Notes: generated by a model not told the origin, from the letters alone. A DNA stretch of 30,359 nt from a virus (IMGVR_UViG_3300034107_000235:1-30359), one strand, 5' to 3'. Shown: positions 14,769 to 30,359, counted from the first letter of the stretch. Translations and numbers: made by a program.

Positions 14769-15617
14769 ATGAGAGACCTTGGTATTGCTGACAGACTCCG
14801 CAACGCTGGTTTGGTGGTTGAGGAACAACCAGGTTGGCAAACTCGTGGCTCAGCTTTGTTTGCTCCAAGGGCTGTGATGTGGCACCACACCGCAAGCGCT
14901 ATGGGCAAGAACCTGCCAAGCCTGAACATTGTGACCAACGGCAGACCAGACCTTGCGGGCCCGTTGTGCCATGTGCTTACGGGTCGGGATAACTGCAACG
15001 TGGTGATTGCAGCGGGCAGGGCTAATCATGCTGGTGCTGGCAGGTGGAACGGTAGCAGTGTCGGCAACAGCGCCTACTGGGGTATCGAGGTAGAGAACGT
15101 CGGCACTATCGCTGAACCGTGGCGACCAGACCAACTGCAAAACGTCGCCGAAGTAACTGCAGCGTTGATTGGTTATAACGCTGGATTGGTTGCTGATTGC
15201 TGTATGCATAAAGAGTGGGCACCAACACGCAAGATCGACATGCACACCATCTCTGGCAATGAGATGCGTGCTCGTGTCATGCAACTCTGCATCGGCACAC
15301 CAGCACCACCACCAGAACCAGCACCACCCACACCAGCTGTTGTTGACCTTGCAGCAATCGCAGCAGGCATAGCAGCAGCATCCAAACAGATCGTCAAACA
15401 GGGCACCAAAGGTGATGCAGCGAAATGGGCGCAAGCCCTACTCAACAACAAGCTTGATGGGCCAGACCTGATAGTTGACGGGAACTTTGGGCCAGCATCA
15501 GTAGCGGCAGCTAAACGCTTTCAAACAAACGTCAAACGGTTCTTCAAACTCTCATCCAAACAGATGCCAGTAGACGGAATCATTGGGCCATCAACCTGGT
15601 ATTGGCTAACAAGATGA
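14769..15617 (+). CDS. Endolysin: N-acetylmuramoyl-L-alanine amidase with peptidoglycan-binding domain
   Basis: This 282-residue lysin cleaves the bond between muramic acid and the stem peptide. The N-terminal domain (about 20-170) is amidase_2 type: the zinc-binding His pattern is visible as VMWHHTAS (H39/H40), NHAGAG (H87, motif RANHAG) and CCMHKEWAPTRKIDMH (H147, with K153/D157-type residues). A proline linker (PAPPPEPAPPTPAVV, about 179-193) leads to a C-terminal peptidoglycan-binding domain with LLNNKLDGPDLIVDGNFGPASVAAAKRFQ and VDGIIGPSTWYWL, the repeat of the PG_binding_1 fold. No signal peptide is seen, so a holin is needed for export, and one follows immediately. Confidence 0.92.
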   Translation: MRDLGIADRLRNAGLVVEEQPGWQTRGSALFAPRAVMWHHTASAMGKNLPSLNIVTNGRPDLAGPLCHVLTGRDNCNVVIAAGRANHAGAGRWNGSSVGNSAYWGIEVENVGTIAEPWRPDQLQNVAEVTAALIGYNAGLVADCCMHKEWAPTRKIDMHTISGNEMRARVMQLCIGTPAPPPEPAPPTPAVVDLAAIAAGIAAASKQIVKQGTKGDAAKWAQALLNNKLDGPDLIVDGNFGPASVAAAKRFQTNVKRFFKLSSKQMPVDGIIGPSTWYWLTR

Positions 15618-22609: not shown

Positions 22610-22923
22610 TGAGCACCAAAAAATCATCAGCACGCACCATGCAAGCAATCAAAGCAACGGTGTACCAAGAGGTAGAAGAGATCGACTTTTACCACACGAA
22701 CGCAAAGATGGTCGATGTCAGGGTGCGTGGCGATGACGTAGGCCATATGAGTTTCAGTATCGGCAAAGCGGTGTTCTTCCTCGAGGGGACCGGCACCAAG
22801 CTGCAAAAATGCCAAGCAATCCGAGACATCGCACAAGCACTCACCACCGCAGCGGACCTGCTCGAAGCAGAAATCGCTGCGGCCGAAACGTACTTCTCAG
22901 AGCAACTGCTGTTAGGTGACTGA
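22609..22923 (+). CDS. Small protein, paralogue of the 19739 gene product
   Basis: This 104-residue protein contains NAKMVDVRVRGDDVGHMSFSIGKAVFFLEGTGTKLQKCQAIRDIAQALTTAADLLEAE. It shares with the 19739 product the order KM-V, GH, F-x-x-G-x-A-x-FF-x-EG and a terminal helix. It starts at the TGATG overlap. Function is unknown. The two copies at different places in the early region suggest that they have separate targets or dosage roles. Confidence 0.62.
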   Translation: MSTKKSSARTMQAIKATVYQEVEEIDFYHTNAKMVDVRVRGDDVGHMSFSIGKAVFFLEGTGTKLQKCQAIRDIAQALTTAADLLEAEIAAAETYFSEQLLLGD

Positions 22924-23347
22924 CCTCATGCGCCTACCAGTACGGGCTGAGATGATCGACCACCTAACCATCATCGTCGAAGACTGCAACAAACAGGCCC
23001 ACTGGCGTAAACACGCTGCGTGCCGTGGCATGGACACCAACCTGTTCTACCCAGAACCGGGATACAACGGGCACAGAAAACAACGGCAAGCGCAAGCGGT
23101 ATGCGCCGGATGCCCTGTACAAGCCGAATGCTTACAAGCGCTTGGTCGTTACAGTGGTGGGATTGTCGGCGGGCAAACCACAGCACAACGCACCAAAGGC
23201 CACATGATCAAAAAGAACCTCGACCTACTCCAACTACGGGATCACATCATCAACACCGAACCGTTGGAGATCGCAGCGCACGATCTTGGCATCAGCGCAC
23301 AATCAGTAAAAAAGCACATCCACCGCCACCCCGAAGGAGTCGCATGA
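22916..23347 (+). CDS. WhiB-family Fe-S regulator (first copy)
   Basis: This 143-residue protein carries the WhiB cluster: AACRGMDTNLFYPE (C36), AVCAGCPVQAECLQAL (C63, C66, C72) and GGIVGGQTTAQR in place of the usual G-[VI]-W-G-G turn. The four Cys should bind a [4Fe-4S] cluster; WhiB proteins bind the host sigma factor and change transcription. A basic C-terminal region with IAAHDLGISAQSVKKHIHRHPEG could contact DNA. The start is uncertain: GTG 22916 overlaps the previous gene by 8 nt, and ATG 22928 is an alternative. The tryptophan of the turn is lacking, which is a deviation from most members. Confidence 0.82.
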   Translation: MTDLMRLPVRAEMIDHLTIIVEDCNKQAHWRKHAACRGMDTNLFYPEPGYNGHRKQRQAQAVCAGCPVQAECLQALGRYSGGIVGGQTTAQRTKGHMIKKNLDLLQLRDHIINTEPLEIAAHDLGISAQSVKKHIHRHPEGVA

Positions 23348-23487
23348 AAGATCAAAAGCTCGAGCACTGCCACCAATGCGGCAAACCTGTCACACCCGGC
23401 ATCGATCACGACACAGCGAACATCAACGGCATCCGTTGGTGGTGCCCAGAACACTGCCCACAATGCCGAGAGTCCCCTAACAGATGA
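23344..23487 (+). CDS. 47-residue zinc-ribbon protein
   Basis: This short frame overlaps the WhiB stop (ATGA) and the next start (ATGA). It encodes MKDQKLEHCHQCGKPVTPG with C9 and C12, then WWCPEHCPQCRESPNR with C34, C38 and C41. The paired CxxC-type groups suggest one bound zinc ion. Position between two WhiB genes suggests a regulatory partner or assembly helper, which is inference only. Confidence 0.6.
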   Translation: MKDQKLEHCHQCGKPVTPGIDHDTANINGIRWWCPEHCPQCRESPNR

Positions 23488-23915
23488 CACCTGAAGAATG
23501 GGACATCGCAGCATGCAGATACCACCCAAAAGAACTGTTCTTCCCAGACCGAAACAACTTCGGTCAAGTATGGGACCGGGCCCGCAACATCTGCCAAGAA
23601 TGCCCAGTCAAAGCCGCATGCCTCCAAGACGGGCAACACGAGGTGTTCGGCATGTGGGGAGGGCTTAGCCCAGCAGAAAGGGGATACGGTCGCTCAAACA
23701 ACGCAGCACCAATGAGTACCGAACGCATCGCAGCCTTGCTCGAACACGTTGGCAAACCCATGACAGTCAACCAGGTATACCTAGCCTTACATCCGCATTA
23801 CACGAAACACGCCACACGCAACGCCTTAACCAGACTCGCACAAGGCGGCATCGCCACCCGCACCTCCAACGTCCAACCTGAACCAGACACCTACCACTGG
23901 AACCACCACACATGA
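23484..23915 (+). CDS. WhiB-family regulator fused to winged-helix-like domain (second copy)
   Basis: This 143-residue protein has the WhiB pattern AACRYHPKELFFP (C11), NICQECPVKAACL (C37, C40, C46) and VFGMWGGLSPAERGYG (GMWGG at 56-60), the conserved turn. The rest differs from ordinary WhiB proteins: residues about 79-127 (STERIAALLEHVGKPMTVNQVYLALHPHYTKHATRNALTRLAQGGIATRTS) look like a winged helix, with three helices and a short wing. It may thus bind both the sigma factor and DNA. ATGA overlaps tie it to the zinc ribbon gene and the PrimPol gene. The fusion is based on my reading and would need structure prediction. Confidence 0.78.
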   Translation: MTPEEWDIAACRYHPKELFFPDRNNFGQVWDRARNICQECPVKAACLQDGQHEVFGMWGGLSPAERGYGRSNNAAPMSTERIAALLEHVGKPMTVNQVYLALHPHYTKHATRNALTRLAQGGIATRTSNVQPEPDTYHWNHHT

Positions 23916-25990
23916 CCACAGACCCGCACAACACAGCCAACGAATACGCACAACGAGGATGGCGAGTAGTGCCCATTGTGCCAGGGGAGAAACGACCAGC
24001 GCTCAACCAGTGGCAACACCAAGCAACAACGGACACCACAACCATTGACCGATGGTGGATGGGTGAACACTCCGGCTGCGGAGTAGGCATCGCAACAGGA
24101 GAACAATCAGGCATCTGGGTCTTAGACATCGATGACCGAGACGCACTCTACGAACTGGAGAAGGAACACGGTGAGCTACCACCAACGCTCACATCGATTA
24201 CAGGTAGCGGCGGTGAGCATCAGGTGTACCTGTGGCCGGCAGATGGGCGCACCATCCACAACAGCGCCAGCGGGTTCATACAAGGCATAGATGTCAGGGG
24301 CGAAGGCGGCCAGATCGTCGCACCACCAACCATCCACCCCAACGGCAACCCATACGAATGGGACGAACAATGCACAGAAATCGCTGCAGCACCCGAATGG
24401 CTACTAGCCCTCATCTGCGACAAAGACCCACAACCCACCACCACACAACCCACCCCGAGCACCACCACCACAGACAGACCAGGAGACCTATGGGCACAGC
24501 AGACCGACTGGGCATACATCCTCATACCCGACGGCTGGCAACTCTCACACACCGACAACAACGGCGAACGCTACTGGGTACGACCCGGCAAAGAACCACG
24601 AGACGGCATCAGCGCAACCACAGGGCACACAGCAAACGACAACCTGCACGTGTTCACAAGCTCAGTACCCAACCTCAAAGCAGAAGAAACATACACAAAG
24701 CTCGGATACCTCGCAGCCATACACCACAACCACGACCACGCTGCAGCGGCACGAGCACTAGCAGCACAAGGATTCACCACACCACAACCAGACCTCAACA
24801 TCCTCAACCACCTCACCACAACCGCCAGCGGTGAACCAGATGCGAACCCGCTTGCCCCATACCTCATCGACTGGCAAAGCTTCTGGACCACAGACCACAC
24901 CGAAACAGAATGGCTACTCGAACCCCTCTTCGCAAAAGGCAGGGCACACGCAATCTACGCCGGAGCCAAAGTCGGCAAAAGCTTTGTCACACTCGCAGCA
25001 TGCGCAGCCCTAGCAACCGGCCAACCATTCCTACGCAAACCCCAAACAAACCCACAACACGTACTCTACGTCGATTACGAGATGACACCAACAGACCTAT
25101 ACGACCGCCTCACAGAATTCGGATACGAATCCACAATCTTCGACCACCTCCACTACGCACAACTACCAGTCATCGCACCCCTCGACACCTCACAAGGCGG
25201 CATCGCACTCTGCCAAGCCGCCCACGCAGTCGGCGCAGAAATAGTAATCATCGACACCACAGGCAGAGCAGTACAAGGCGAAGAAAACGACGCAGGCACC
25301 TACCAAGACTTCTACCGCCACACAGGCATGCAACTCAAACGCATGGGCATCACATGGGCACGCCTCGACCACGCAGGCAAAGACACCACCAGAGGCCAAC
25401 GAGGATCATCAGCAAAGAACGACGACGTAGACATAGTCGTCAACCTCACACGCACACCAACCGGCATCACATGGACAGCAACCCACAGGCGCATGTCCTG
25501 GTACCCAGAACAATCAGACATCACCATCGCAGAACTAGACGACCAAGCCACCTTCACAATGGAAGGCGGCAACCTCGAACAGTTCGAGCTCCACATCTTC
25601 GACCTCTCAGACTGGCTCGACGCTGAAGGAATACCAGCCAACGCACCCATCCGAGAATGCTGGGCACACACCAAAACAAACGGACCCGCAGGCACCCTCA
25701 AAAAGGATGTACAAGCGGCAGTCAGGTACCGCAAATCGGCACAGTATTCGCTGCGAAAAACAGGGCGGGACAAAGCTCGGGACACGCCTCCGGACAAAAC
25801 TGCGGGACAGACTGCGGGACACTCTGGGACAGAACCCGAAACCCATACAAACAAAGGCGGGACAGAGAGCGGGACACTGCGGGACACTATTGAGCAGGCA
25901 CAGCGGGACACTCTGTCACCCCGTAGGGGGGACAGAGTTCACGGCCCACAAACCGAACACCCAAACCAACCCACATACGAAGAGTTCTAA
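23912..25990 (+). CDS. Primase-polymerase/helicase replication protein
   Basis: This 692-residue protein is probably the phage replication enzyme. Residues about 8-165 form a bifunctional primase-polymerase (AEP) domain: GWRVVPIVPGEKRPAL, WVLDIDDRDAL (D72, D74), GEHQVYLW (H103) and GIDVRGEGGQIVAPPTIHPNG. A Thr/Pro linker (about 172-190) leads to a RecA-like helicase/ATPase: Walker A AGAKVGKSF (350-358), LYVDYEM and Walker B AEIVIIDTTGR (442-452), then RLDHAGKDTTRGQRGSSA. The pairing recalls plasmid and phage RepA-type initiators. The last 90 residues are low in complexity because the DNA there carries the GGGACA repeats. The ATG overlaps the upstream stop (ATGA). Confidence 0.86.
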   Translation: MTTDPHNTANEYAQRGWRVVPIVPGEKRPALNQWQHQATTDTTTIDRWWMGEHSGCGVGIATGEQSGIWVLDIDDRDALYELEKEHGELPPTLTSITGSGGEHQVYLWPADGRTIHNSASGFIQGIDVRGEGGQIVAPPTIHPNGNPYEWDEQCTEIAAAPEWLLALICDKDPQPTTTQPTPSTTTTDRPGDLWAQQTDWAYILIPDGWQLSHTDNNGERYWVRPGKEPRDGISATTGHTANDNLHVFTSSVPNLKAEETYTKLGYLAAIHHNHDHAAAARALAAQGFTTPQPDLNILNHLTTTASGEPDANPLAPYLIDWQSFWTTDHTETEWLLEPLFAKGRAHAIYAGAKVGKSFVTLAACAALATGQPFLRKPQTNPQHVLYVDYEMTPTDLYDRLTEFGYESTIFDHLHYAQLPVIAPLDTSQGGIALCQAAHAVGAEIVIIDTTGRAVQGEENDAGTYQDFYRHTGMQLKRMGITWARLDHAGKDTTRGQRGSSAKNDDVDIVVNLTRTPTGITWTATHRRMSWYPEQSDITIAELDDQATFTMEGGNLEQFELHIFDLSDWLDAEGIPANAPIRECWAHTKTNGPAGTLKKDVQAAVRYRKSAQYSLRKTGRDKARDTPPDKTAGQTAGHSGTEPETHTNKGGTESGTLRDTIEQAQRDTLSPRRGDRVHGPQTEHPNQPTYEEF
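25766..25937 (+). repeat. GGGACA iteron-like array with terminal hairpin (candidate replication origin)
   Basis: Eleven copies of (C/G/T)GGGACA or CCGGACA start at 25766, 25778, 25790, 25803, 25815, 25825, 25858, 25870, 25880, 25904 and 25928. The spacings are 12, 12, 13, 12, 10, 33, 12, 10, 24 and 24, close to one or two helical turns. The copies fall in all three codon phases of the host gene, so the selection is on DNA and not on protein. The array makes a local G-rich patch in a G-poor region. It ends in CTCTGTCACCCC (25911-25922) facing GGGGGGACAGAG (25926-25937), a 12-bp stem with one mismatch that includes the last copy. Confidence 0.75.
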
Positions 25991-26002
25991 GGACACCAAA
26001 CC

Positions 26003-26248
26003 ATGCCCAACTGTCAATGCCAATACCGAGGTGACCTACTCACACAAGGACACCGAGACCACCACCGCAACTGGGAACAAACACAACCCACAACCAGACA
26101 CCCAACCACCTCCACCACAACAGCAATCGAGATCACCCAACTCATCATCGCCATCGACCAACTCACCGCAGCCCTACACGGCGGCCCACCACCACCGCTC
26201 ACACCAGGAGCACAAGCAATCATCGCCAACCACAGGAGCCAACAGTGA
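26003..26248 (+). CDS. Small early protein, unknown
   Basis: This 81-residue protein starts at ATG 26003 with AAGGA at 25990-25994. It begins MPNCQCQYRGDLLTQGHRDHHRNW, with two Cys and several His, and continues with a Thr-rich stretch, a helix (IEITQLIIAIDQLTAALHGG) and a Pro-rich end. A GTGA overlap couples it to the next gene. No family is recognised. The base composition is extremely C/A-rich, as in its neighbours. Confidence 0.5.
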   Translation: MPNCQCQYRGDLLTQGHRDHHRNWEQTQPTTRHPTTSTTTAIEITQLIIAIDQLTAALHGGPPPPLTPGAQAIIANHRSQQ

Positions 26249-26769
26249 AAGACCTCGACCAGCTCACAGCCCTAGCCAACACCATCACACGCATCCTCGA
26301 AGCCGGCGCACAAGCACTCATCGAACAACGCAGTGGTTTCCCAGCCGGTGGCACAGGCGGCACACCAAGCTCAACCAGTGACCGCACAGGCAGGCTCGCA
26401 ACAACACGAGCAGACAAAGGCCCAGAACGATCAGACCAAGACTACGAACGAACCATACAGATCCTCATTGAGCTCGAGGACATCCTCAACCGAGCACGAC
26501 CACCCAAACGCACAACCATCCACATCCAAGCAACCACCACACAACACGACGATGGCTGCAGATCATGCGCACGAGTAGGCACATGGACCGCACGAACCAA
26601 GAACAACCCCATGTGCCGCACATGCAACGAGCTCATCCTCCGCATACAAATGCAACACAACATCACCCTCGAGCTACCACCAACCACACTCGTCGACCGC
26701 CAACGCCAAGGCCGCCGCATCACCACACGAGAAATCAACCAAGCACTCCACGAAAATAAAACACGGTGA
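26245..26769 (+). CDS. Putative zinc-finger protein
   Basis: This 174-residue protein starts at a GTG with a CAGGAG site about 7 nt upstream, overlapping the TGA before it. After an N-terminal helix (DLDQLTALANTITRILEAGAQALIEQ) and a Gly/Ser-rich linker there is a second helix (YERTIQILIELEDILNRAR). Residues 105-127 are CRSCARVGTWTARTKNNPMCRTC, a CxxC-x15-CxxC pattern expected to hold zinc. The end is basic (VDRQRQGRRITTREINQAL). It may bind DNA or join a replication complex; the function is not known. Confidence 0.6.
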   Translation: MKDLDQLTALANTITRILEAGAQALIEQRSGFPAGGTGGTPSSTSDRTGRLATTRADKGPERSDQDYERTIQILIELEDILNRARPPKRTTIHIQATTTQHDDGCRSCARVGTWTARTKNNPMCRTCNELILRIQMQHNITLELPPTTLVDRQRQGRRITTREINQALHENKTR

Positions 26770-26845
26770 TAACCTTGACGATCGCCACCACCACATGTAA
26801 CGCTTACGGCAGTCTCACCACACCCAGCCTAGAAGCAGGACAGTG
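26770..26845. other. Short intergenic region with weak TTGACG element
   Basis: This 76-nt gap contains TTGACG at 26775-26780 and TGTAAC at 26796-26801, 15 nt apart. The spacing is short and the second hexamer is poor, so a promoter here is only possible. AGCAGGACAG before 26846 serves as ribosome site for the HNH gene. Confidence 0.25.
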
Positions 26846-27121
26846 ATGGCATCCAAAGGCCGCAGCACTAGGCAGTGGAAGACCATCAGCCTTACCGTCT
26901 ACGCAGAAGAAACACATTGCTGGCTATGCGGACGAGCAGTAGACCACACCATCCAACCAAGAACACGATGGGCACACAGTGTCGATCACATCATCCCAAT
27001 CAGCCAAGGCGGCGCACCATACGACCGTGCCAACCTCCGCCTCGCACACCACGGCTGCAACAGCCGACGCTCCAACAACCGAGCGCAACCACAACGACCA
27101 GGCGCAACACGCCAATGGTAA
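26846..27121 (+). CDS. HNH endonuclease
   Basis: This 91-residue protein has an HNH fold: CWLCGRAVD (C25, C28), HSVDHIIPISQGG (H44, D47, H48) and NLRLAHHGCNSRR (N63, H69, C71, N72), the order of a Cys-framed HNH nuclease. HNH proteins next to terminase genes commonly act with TerL in genome cutting at the packaging site. A GTG start at 26843 is possible, but ATG 26846 is better placed to the AGCAGGACAG ribosome site. Its stop is followed by the DnaA-box region. Confidence 0.85.
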   Translation: MASKGRSTRQWKTISLTVYAEETHCWLCGRAVDHTIQPRTRWAHSVDHIIPISQGGAPYDRANLRLAHHGCNSRRSNNRAQPQRPGATRQW

Positions 27122-27355
27122 AACCTCACACACAGTGAGATAGTTATCCACAGATAACCTGCCCACCCCACGAAAGTTATCCACAGAAACCTGTGAACTT
27201 TTTTTAGGGGTGGGTGCTTGAGTATCCCGCTGCTTTTACAGGCCGATTTTTCTCTCCACAATTTCTCAACGTTATCCACAGATTTCTGGGGATAACCTCG
27301 GAAGCTTAAAAAGGTTGTCCACAGGGCCTGTGGATTGTTTCGGAAGGTGGTCACG
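27122..27355. promoter_or_regulatory. DnaA-box cluster, origin-like intergenic region
   Basis: This 234-nt non-coding stretch contains TTATCCACA at 27144-27152, 27177-27185 and 27272-27280, and TTGTCCACA at 27315-27323, all in the same orientation. TTATNCACA is the E. coli DnaA box and TTGTCCACA is the usual actinobacterial form. Weak reverse sites occur at 27287-27295 and 27329-27337. Small dyads overlap boxes (GTTATC-CACA-GATAAC at 27143-27158 and TCCACAG-GGC-CTGTGGA at 27318-27334). A T-rich stretch (27231-27270) between boxes could unwind. Confidence 0.82.
27173..27205 (+). terminator. Hairpin with T7 tract inside the DnaA-box region
   Basis: CACAG (27182-27186) pairs with CTGTG (27191-27195) and AAAGTT (27173-27178) with AACTTT (27196-27201), with a 3-nt bulge on the left arm and a T7 tract at 27199-27205. 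It is a plausible end for early transcripts. DnaA box 2 (27177-27185) overlaps the left arm, so bound DnaA and termination may interfere. Confidence 0.6.
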
Positions 27356-27622
27356 TTGAGTGAGATTCTTGATGCTGCGCAAAGCGGTGACCGTCGTGCG
27401 ACCCTTGAGGCTTTGCGTGACCAGATCGCTTTGGTGATCGACGCACCTTCAACAACGGGTGCGGAGTTGGCTTCGCTTGCACGGCAGATGATTGTGGTTA
27501 CTGAGATCCTTGAGGGGATCTCTGATGGGCAGGCGGTGAATCTTGTTAATGACCTCGCAGCAAAACGAGCTTCTCGGAAGCCAGGTGCCAACACATCTGG
27601 TCGTGCCGCCAGCGGCGGTTAG
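27356..27622 (+). CDS. Terminase small subunit
   Basis: This 88-residue protein lies directly before TerL. LSEILDAAQSGDRRATLEALRDQIALVIDAPSTTGAELASLARQMIVVTEILEGISDGQ matches the short helical TerS type of actinophages (leading SEILDAAQSGDRxAxLEALRDxIA and LARQMxxVxxEI). The TTG at 27356 is chosen because GGAAGG stands about 8-14 nt before it; the frame is open up to 27335, where another TTG exists. TerS binds phage DNA and loads TerL. It overlaps the TerL start by 74 nt. Confidence 0.75.
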   Translation: MSEILDAAQSGDRRATLEALRDQIALVIDAPSTTGAELASLARQMIVVTEILEGISDGQAVNLVNDLAAKRASRKPGANTSGRAASGG

Positions 27623-30274: not shown

Positions 30275-30359
30275 TGCCTTGGCATGTGGTGGAAAAAGAT
30301 GCGGGCTGTTCTGTTTCTGAACCGTGGGGTGTTCGCAAAGATGATGACAATTCATTAGC
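30274..30359 (+). CDS. 5' end of the prohead protease region gene (cut by the window end)
   Basis: The frame starts at an ATG overlapping the portal stop and encodes MPWHVVEKDAGCSVSEPWGV, then RKDDDNSLA. This is the beginning of a small domain common upstream of phage prohead proteases, whose end reads GCHxxxxxAxxQxxALYASE. The window start continues the same pattern as HGSRAEAVDQIAALYASE, in frame with the protease at 75-1007. The missing piece between the ends would be A-G-C, about five bases. Confidence 0.8.
   Translation, partial: MPWHVVEKDAGCSVSEPWGVRKDDDNSL

Follow-up and report, generated by a model that had tools for sequence, protein, structure and literature searches.

The question raised by this locus is where the phage begins to replicate. 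The window, by which we mean the whole stretch of DNA analysed, is the IMG/VR virus record IMGVR_UViG_3300034107_000235 at its full length of 30,359 bases. The original prediction placed a plasmid-like replicon, comparable to those of pSC101 and P1, at 25766-27355, in which a PrimPol-helicase, iterons and DnaA boxes would lie together beside a strand skew flip. We found that a PrimPol-helicase, an iteron-like array and a DnaA cluster are indeed all present, with only the 3′ end of the gene lying within 25766-27355.

Genome and host

The record is probably close to a whole genome which was opened by the assembler, because both the gene order and an ORF continue across the contig end. Genes for the small terminase, large terminase and portal follow one another at 27.3-30.3 kb, and the head protease resumes at the window start. 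An ORF typical of actinophages (MPWHVVEKD...), begun at 30275, was seen by eye to cross the contig end (30275-30359 into 1-80), with a few bases missing. Two tandem WhiB-like regulators (22916-23347 and 23484-23915) lie immediately 5′ of the PrimPol-helicase gene. Given these two genes, and given that the helicase relatives found in cellular genomes are almost all actinobacterial, the host of the phage is likely to be an actinobacterium. The suggestion of a phage-plasmid phase found no support, with no integrase, ParA or ParB recognised by PHROGs or Pfam among the ORFs scanned.

The PrimPol-helicase gene

The proposed initiator is encoded on the plus strand at 23912-25990 (692 aa) and was described by Pfam, profile and Foldseek searches as a PrimPol joined to a RepA-like helicase, a C-terminal three-helix domain and a disordered tail. 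The Prim-Pol (archaeo-eukaryotic primase) domain (23936-24400, plus strand, aa 9-163; Pfam PF09250, E = 8.7e-44) has a profile match to pRN1 ORF904 (1RNI, E = 1.4e-7), its nearest solved structure. The RepA/AAA_25 domain, of the hexameric helicase type (24896-25387, plus strand, aa 329-492; Pfam PF13481, E = 2.8e-21), has a profile match to RSF1010 RepA (1G8Y, E = 1.1e-6), and the RepA structures 1NLF and 1OLO also rank first by E-value in Foldseek. The C-terminal domain (25574-25741, plus strand, aa 555-610), the candidate iteron reader, was seen in AlphaFold models and covaries with the iteron; it has no confident fold relative (Foldseek E > 2; best VIA-align Z of 5.9, to unrelated proteins) and a Pfam search of the C-terminal domains gave no consistent match. 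The proposed initiator is a PrimPol with an RSF1010 RepA-like helicase and a small C-terminal domain, and this composition does not bear out the analogy with pSC101 and P1, whose Rep proteins are of the Rep_3/RepA winged-helix type and contain neither helicase nor primase.

An iteron array within the coding sequence

The array, which is the proposed origin, spans 25767-25934 and consists of 10 direct copies of GGGACA. All lie on the plus strand and within the 3′ end of the PrimPol-helicase ORF, a location which the original prediction had left unstated. Successive copies are spaced by 12, 25, 12, 10, 33, 12, 10, 24 and 24 bp, and only 3 further copies occur in the whole window, both strands summed. 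The copies occupy all three codon phases and code for different peptides. When the protein stretch under the array was resampled with synonymous codons (20,000 trials), a mean of 1.2 and a maximum of 7 GGGACA were obtained, compared to the 10 observed. We also compared the window to four close relatives (L002-L005). Synonymous codons differed at 1.4% in the array versus 19% in the rest of the gene, and fourfold sites at 0.6% versus 23%, although amino-acid divergence was equal (8.5% in the array, 8.3% in the rest of the gene); the GGGACA copies were unaltered in all five phages. The array is under DNA-level selection, because its synonymous and fourfold sites are frozen at equal amino-acid divergence.

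The array is closed by a single palindrome, a potential hairpin of 29 bp at 25910-25938 (ACTCTGTCACCCC-GTA-GGGGGGACAGAGT), with a DNA fold of -15.1 kcal/mol (z = -6.35). In L003 two substitutions in the stem swap a C-G pair for a T-A pair and are thus compensatory. Palindromes of a pyrimidine-TA-purine form were found in the array region of 25 of 57 loci, at 0.60/kb compared to 0.010/kb elsewhere in the same loci, and in many loci they lie within the array or at its far end; it should be noted that the window's own palindrome fails the strict motif used for this count. The idea that the hairpin is exceptional by arm length was rejected, as 7 of 71 control windows match it in this respect. What supports it is the specific pyrimidine-TA-purine form, the DNA fold and the compensatory change. 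A search of Rfam gave no match.

Arrays in related phages and chromosomal elements

Most viral relatives were found to have, at the matching position, an array of a different repeat unit together with a C-tract/TA/G-tract palindrome; the units include GGGACCAC, CGGACCAC, GGGAACCG, GGGAACCAC, GGGACAG, GAACAGG and GGGCAGG, among others. In relatives at 30-50% identity the helicase gene likewise has an array at its 3′ end, which is intragenic in L006, L008, L010, L018 and Streptomyces phage mu1/6, and wholly or mostly non-coding, just past the stop codon, in L012, L015, L021, L023 and L025. In most viral loci, including mu1/6, the 3′ end of the helicase gene has an over-represented 7-mer which tops every control window from the same locus (P ≤ 0.005, a floor set by the 200 shuffles used). 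Arrays were not found in some relatives (L024, L026, L058 and L070).

A scan of genome contigs gave no match with a narrow alignment and 30 bacterial loci (L053-L082) with a broader one, from Mycobacterium, Streptomyces, Amycolatopsis, Nocardioides, Acidimicrobiia and others, nearly all of them actinobacterial. About half of these were positive in the same 7-mer test, rising to about two thirds of the 30 if arrays found by hand are included. The loci are chromosomal elements with the helicase, array and palindrome laid out as in the window phage. A search of a plasmid collection returned one weak match.

The repeat unit changes with the C-terminal domain

Across 43 loci, similarity of the C-terminal domain predicted similarity of the iteron when helicase similarity was controlled for (partial r = 0.20, permutation P = 0.0055), while helicase similarity did not predict it when the C-terminal domain was controlled for (partial r = 0.075, P = 0.13); the permutation treats loci as exchangeable, which removes shared ancestry only in part. 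By these comparisons, iteron identity tracks the C-terminal three-helix domain and not the helicase domain. L010, L012, L015 and L025, for example, all have GGGAACC iterons and a third helix which starts with Gly-Arg/Lys-Arg-Arg. L054 has the same basic motif, and in a targeted search 8 of the 11 GGAACC copies in this locus fell in the expected region.

Natural recombinants were also found. Compared to the window, L007 has kept its PrimPol domain (78-100% identity per 50-residue block) and its downstream genes (mostly 90-99%), whereas the helicase, C-terminal domain and array between these conserved flanks belong to another type and were exchanged together; where the window has its array, L007 has a new AAGTGCGGCC-like repeat and a CCCCTACGTAGTAGGGG hairpin (L007:2790-2935). 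L004 (genome G003), on the other hand, has an array and helicase of the window type (94% identity), but another terminase (44% identity for the large terminase). The predicted 1.6 kb unit is thus, on the evidence of the sequences, split by two exchange points, the array going with the helicase and the DnaA cluster with the terminase. The part of the plasmid-like unit which stands is thus an initiator enzyme with its own iterons; the DnaA cluster lies 1.2 kb from the array, is separable from it and surrounds a likely cos site.

The DnaA cluster and the probable packaging end

The DnaA cluster lies in the intergenic region at 27122-27334, between an HNH gene (26843-27121) and the small terminase gene (27335-27622). 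It contains three exact TTATCCACA boxes (27144-27152, 27177-27185 and 27272-27280, plus strand), one TTATCCCCA box with 1 mismatch (27287-27295, minus strand) and one exact TTGTCCACA box of the actinobacterial form (27315-27323, plus strand). With up to 1 mismatch allowed, these 213 bp contain five boxes, compared to a maximum of 3 in shuffles of the window (100 trials) and of 2 in shuffles of the intergenic region (1000 trials), and the cluster at 27144-27323 is therefore real and non-random. The same region probably contains the packaging end, a cos site at 27226-27237 (CCCGCTGCTTTT) surrounded by the boxes, because the two contig ends of the relative G002 share 12 bp at the equivalent of window position ~27225-27237 and the contig of G004 stops there too.

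Seen from the packaging end, the DnaA-like repeats could be parts of it, either terminase-binding repeats or terminator stems at cos, and be unrelated to DnaA. The cos site of phage lambda offers a parallel, as its cosB carries repeated terminase sites. In the window the boxes flank the probable cos site, they vanish where the terminase is of another type, and some of the CCACAG/CTGTGG boxes form terminator-like stems (27182-27195 and 27318-27334; CACAG/CTGTG and TCCACAGG/CCTGTGGA) which overlap or adjoin two of the boxes. We nevertheless regard this as somewhat unlikely; DnaA is the simpler reader, because four of the boxes, TTGTCCACA among them, match its consensus exactly and because other relatives have the same 9-mer at their arrays.

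If DnaA does read the boxes, the cluster at 27144-27323 might itself be the functional origin, at which host DnaA opens the DNA and the PrimPol-helicase merely primes. The cluster is non-random, the minimum of the GC skew of the window falls within it at 27287 (the maximum is at 15219), and in the less close relatives L006, L008 and L012 (genomes G005, G007 and G010) the only exact TTRTCCACA boxes of the genome are found at the array, which links DnaA to the system. However, L004/G003, which shares the array and whose helicase is 94% identical, has no exact DnaA box in its 31.4 kb, the cluster goes with the independently exchanged terminase/cos module, and inspection around the arrays of the 30 bacterial genome loci gave no exact box. 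The skew does not help either. The flip lies 0.3-2.7 kb from the array, at or towards the boundary of early and late genes, and in the circular relative G005 the minimum precedes the large terminase gene by ~200 bp, is separated from the array by ~1.7 kb and has no DnaA box nearby. Since the minimum in G005 tracks the terminase boundary and not the array, GC skew was dropped as an origin marker. An origin at the DnaA cluster is, on balance, improbable.

The borrowing of host DnaA at the origin, as originally predicted, may hold for part of the family. Boxes are found at the array in L006, L008, L010, L012 and L023, and DnaA is probably an optional helper in the branch with boxes at the array, because the exact boxes of G005, G007 and G010 sit only there; for the window phage itself, where the related L004/G003 lacks the cluster, the boxes appear to have moved to, or to belong to, the cos/terminase end. 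The wider caution is that, if this is correct, a DnaA cluster with a skew flip need not be the origin of a phage; in the window phage they would mark the packaging end.

The array as a probable replication origin

We think it likely that the array and hairpin at 25767-25938, inside the 3′ end of the initiator gene, are the replication origin of the phage. At the level of sequence, the case is made up of an array with a palindrome, DNA-level selection, a conserved position, unit changes which follow the C-terminal domain and the natural exchange of the cassette. An operator or centromere-like site, the target of a repressor or partition protein, would look similar in some respects, as direct repeats also serve repressors and ParB/StbA-type proteins, and the DNA-binding domain of R388 StbA is one of the weak fold matches to the C-terminal domain. 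But the repeat unit follows the C-terminal domain of the helicase protein itself, the array and helicase are exchanged together and neither ParA nor ParB was recognised among the scanned ORFs, which makes such a site very unlikely. That the repeats are a mere by-product of a repetitive protein tail, which is predicted to be disordered at aa 611-685, can practically be dismissed given copies in three codon phases encoding different peptides, frozen synonymous sites and arrays which are all or mostly non-coding in five relatives (L012, L015, L021, L023 and L025).

For an origin at the array and hairpin, we propose that the GGGACA iterons would be bound by the C-terminal three-helix domain of the PrimPol-helicase. 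Binding would load the hexameric helicase of the RepA-like type, and the TA-centred palindrome beside the iterons would open or extrude. The PrimPol domain would then prime the exposed strands near the palindrome and a host polymerase would extend the primers; the hairpin, being palindromic, could work for both strands. Binding, loading, priming and the direction of replication are modelled here on SaPI Rep/Cch2, pRN1 and RSF1010. Since structural searches gave no confident relative of the C-terminal domain, the iteron-binding role proposed for it rests on the covariation and the cassette exchange.

Comparison to known systems

Examples are already known of initiator helicases that read iterons at the end of the gene encoding them, and of PrimPol-helicase genes followed by an origin hairpin. 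The C-terminal domains of the SaPI Rep and SCCmec Cch2 initiator helicases read short iterons at or just past the 3′ end of their own gene (PMC7581432). The window phage and its relatives share this position of the iterons, but the helicase of the window is of the RSF1010 RepA type and fused to a PrimPol, and its iterons lie in coding sequence with a TA-centred palindrome at their end. In Sulfolobus plasmid pRN1 and phage BIP-1, the gene for a PrimPol-helicase with a C-terminal DNA-binding domain carries an origin hairpin at its 3′ end; pRN1 uses an SF3 helicase and a 100-nt stem-loop and has no iterons (PMC4234260). The window shares the Prim-Pol domain of the ORF904 type, but has a RepA-like helicase, a 29-bp hairpin and iterons.

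RSF1010, whose replication as summarised in PMC4234260 was used for the mechanism, has a RepA helicase, a RepB′ primase, a RepC iteron binder and ssi hairpins. The window resembles it in having a RepA-type helicase, an AEP primase, iterons and a hairpin as a possible priming site; it differs in that one polypeptide would hold all of the functions, and no RepC-like gene was recognised among the scanned ORFs. The iterons of RSF1010 are ~20 bp long, compared to 6-10 bp in the window system and its relatives, which also have one palindrome in place of two separate ssi sites. The resemblance to P4 alpha and lambda O lies in an initiator with a dedicated iteron-binding domain and in iterons at or inside the initiator gene; the lambda iterons are inside the O gene, and lambda O is not known to be a helicase. 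P4 alpha carries a Toprim primase (PMC4234260). The pSC101 and P1 replicons are similar in having an iteron array by the initiator gene, but in the window the array is inside the 3′ end of that gene, and their DnaA boxes are within the origin, whereas the boxes are 1.2 kb away and separable in the window clade and at the array in L006, L008, L010, L012 and L023.

In the literature searched, which lay mostly outside subscription journals, we found neither the combination of a RepA-type helicase, iterons in coding sequence, co-change of repeat and reader and a fixed TA-centred palindrome, nor a description of the origin for the RepA-type helicase family in actinobacterial phages. The origin of the window phage may belong to a class of self-contained origins which has so far gone unrecognised and is widespread among the phages and chromosomal elements of actinobacteria. 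In this class one polypeptide would read, unwind and prime, the origin would lie in the end of the gene encoding it, and iteron “passwords” would diversify along with the small C-terminal reading domain around a fixed TA-centred palindrome; we regard this broader proposal as evenly balanced between right and wrong. If true, helicase, reader and iterons would travel as one specificity cassette which sets replication incompatibility. If the array is indeed the origin, sequence would allow origins to be predicted in many phages and integrated elements, in each case with a separate repeat and reader domain. This would offer a system for studying the co-evolution of initiator and origin, a source of compatible actinobacterial replicons and a test of whether one protein can replace RepA, RepB′ and RepC of RSF1010.

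The nearest cultured phage, and the best laboratory system, is Streptomyces phage mu1/6. Its gp21 has a homologous helicase domain (41% identity over 214 aa), with no apparent Prim-Pol domain and an N-terminus which by eye is DnaB-like. The end of the gene holds a GGGCAGG array and a palindrome (L051:4400-4600), which the mu1/6 record carries without an origin annotation.
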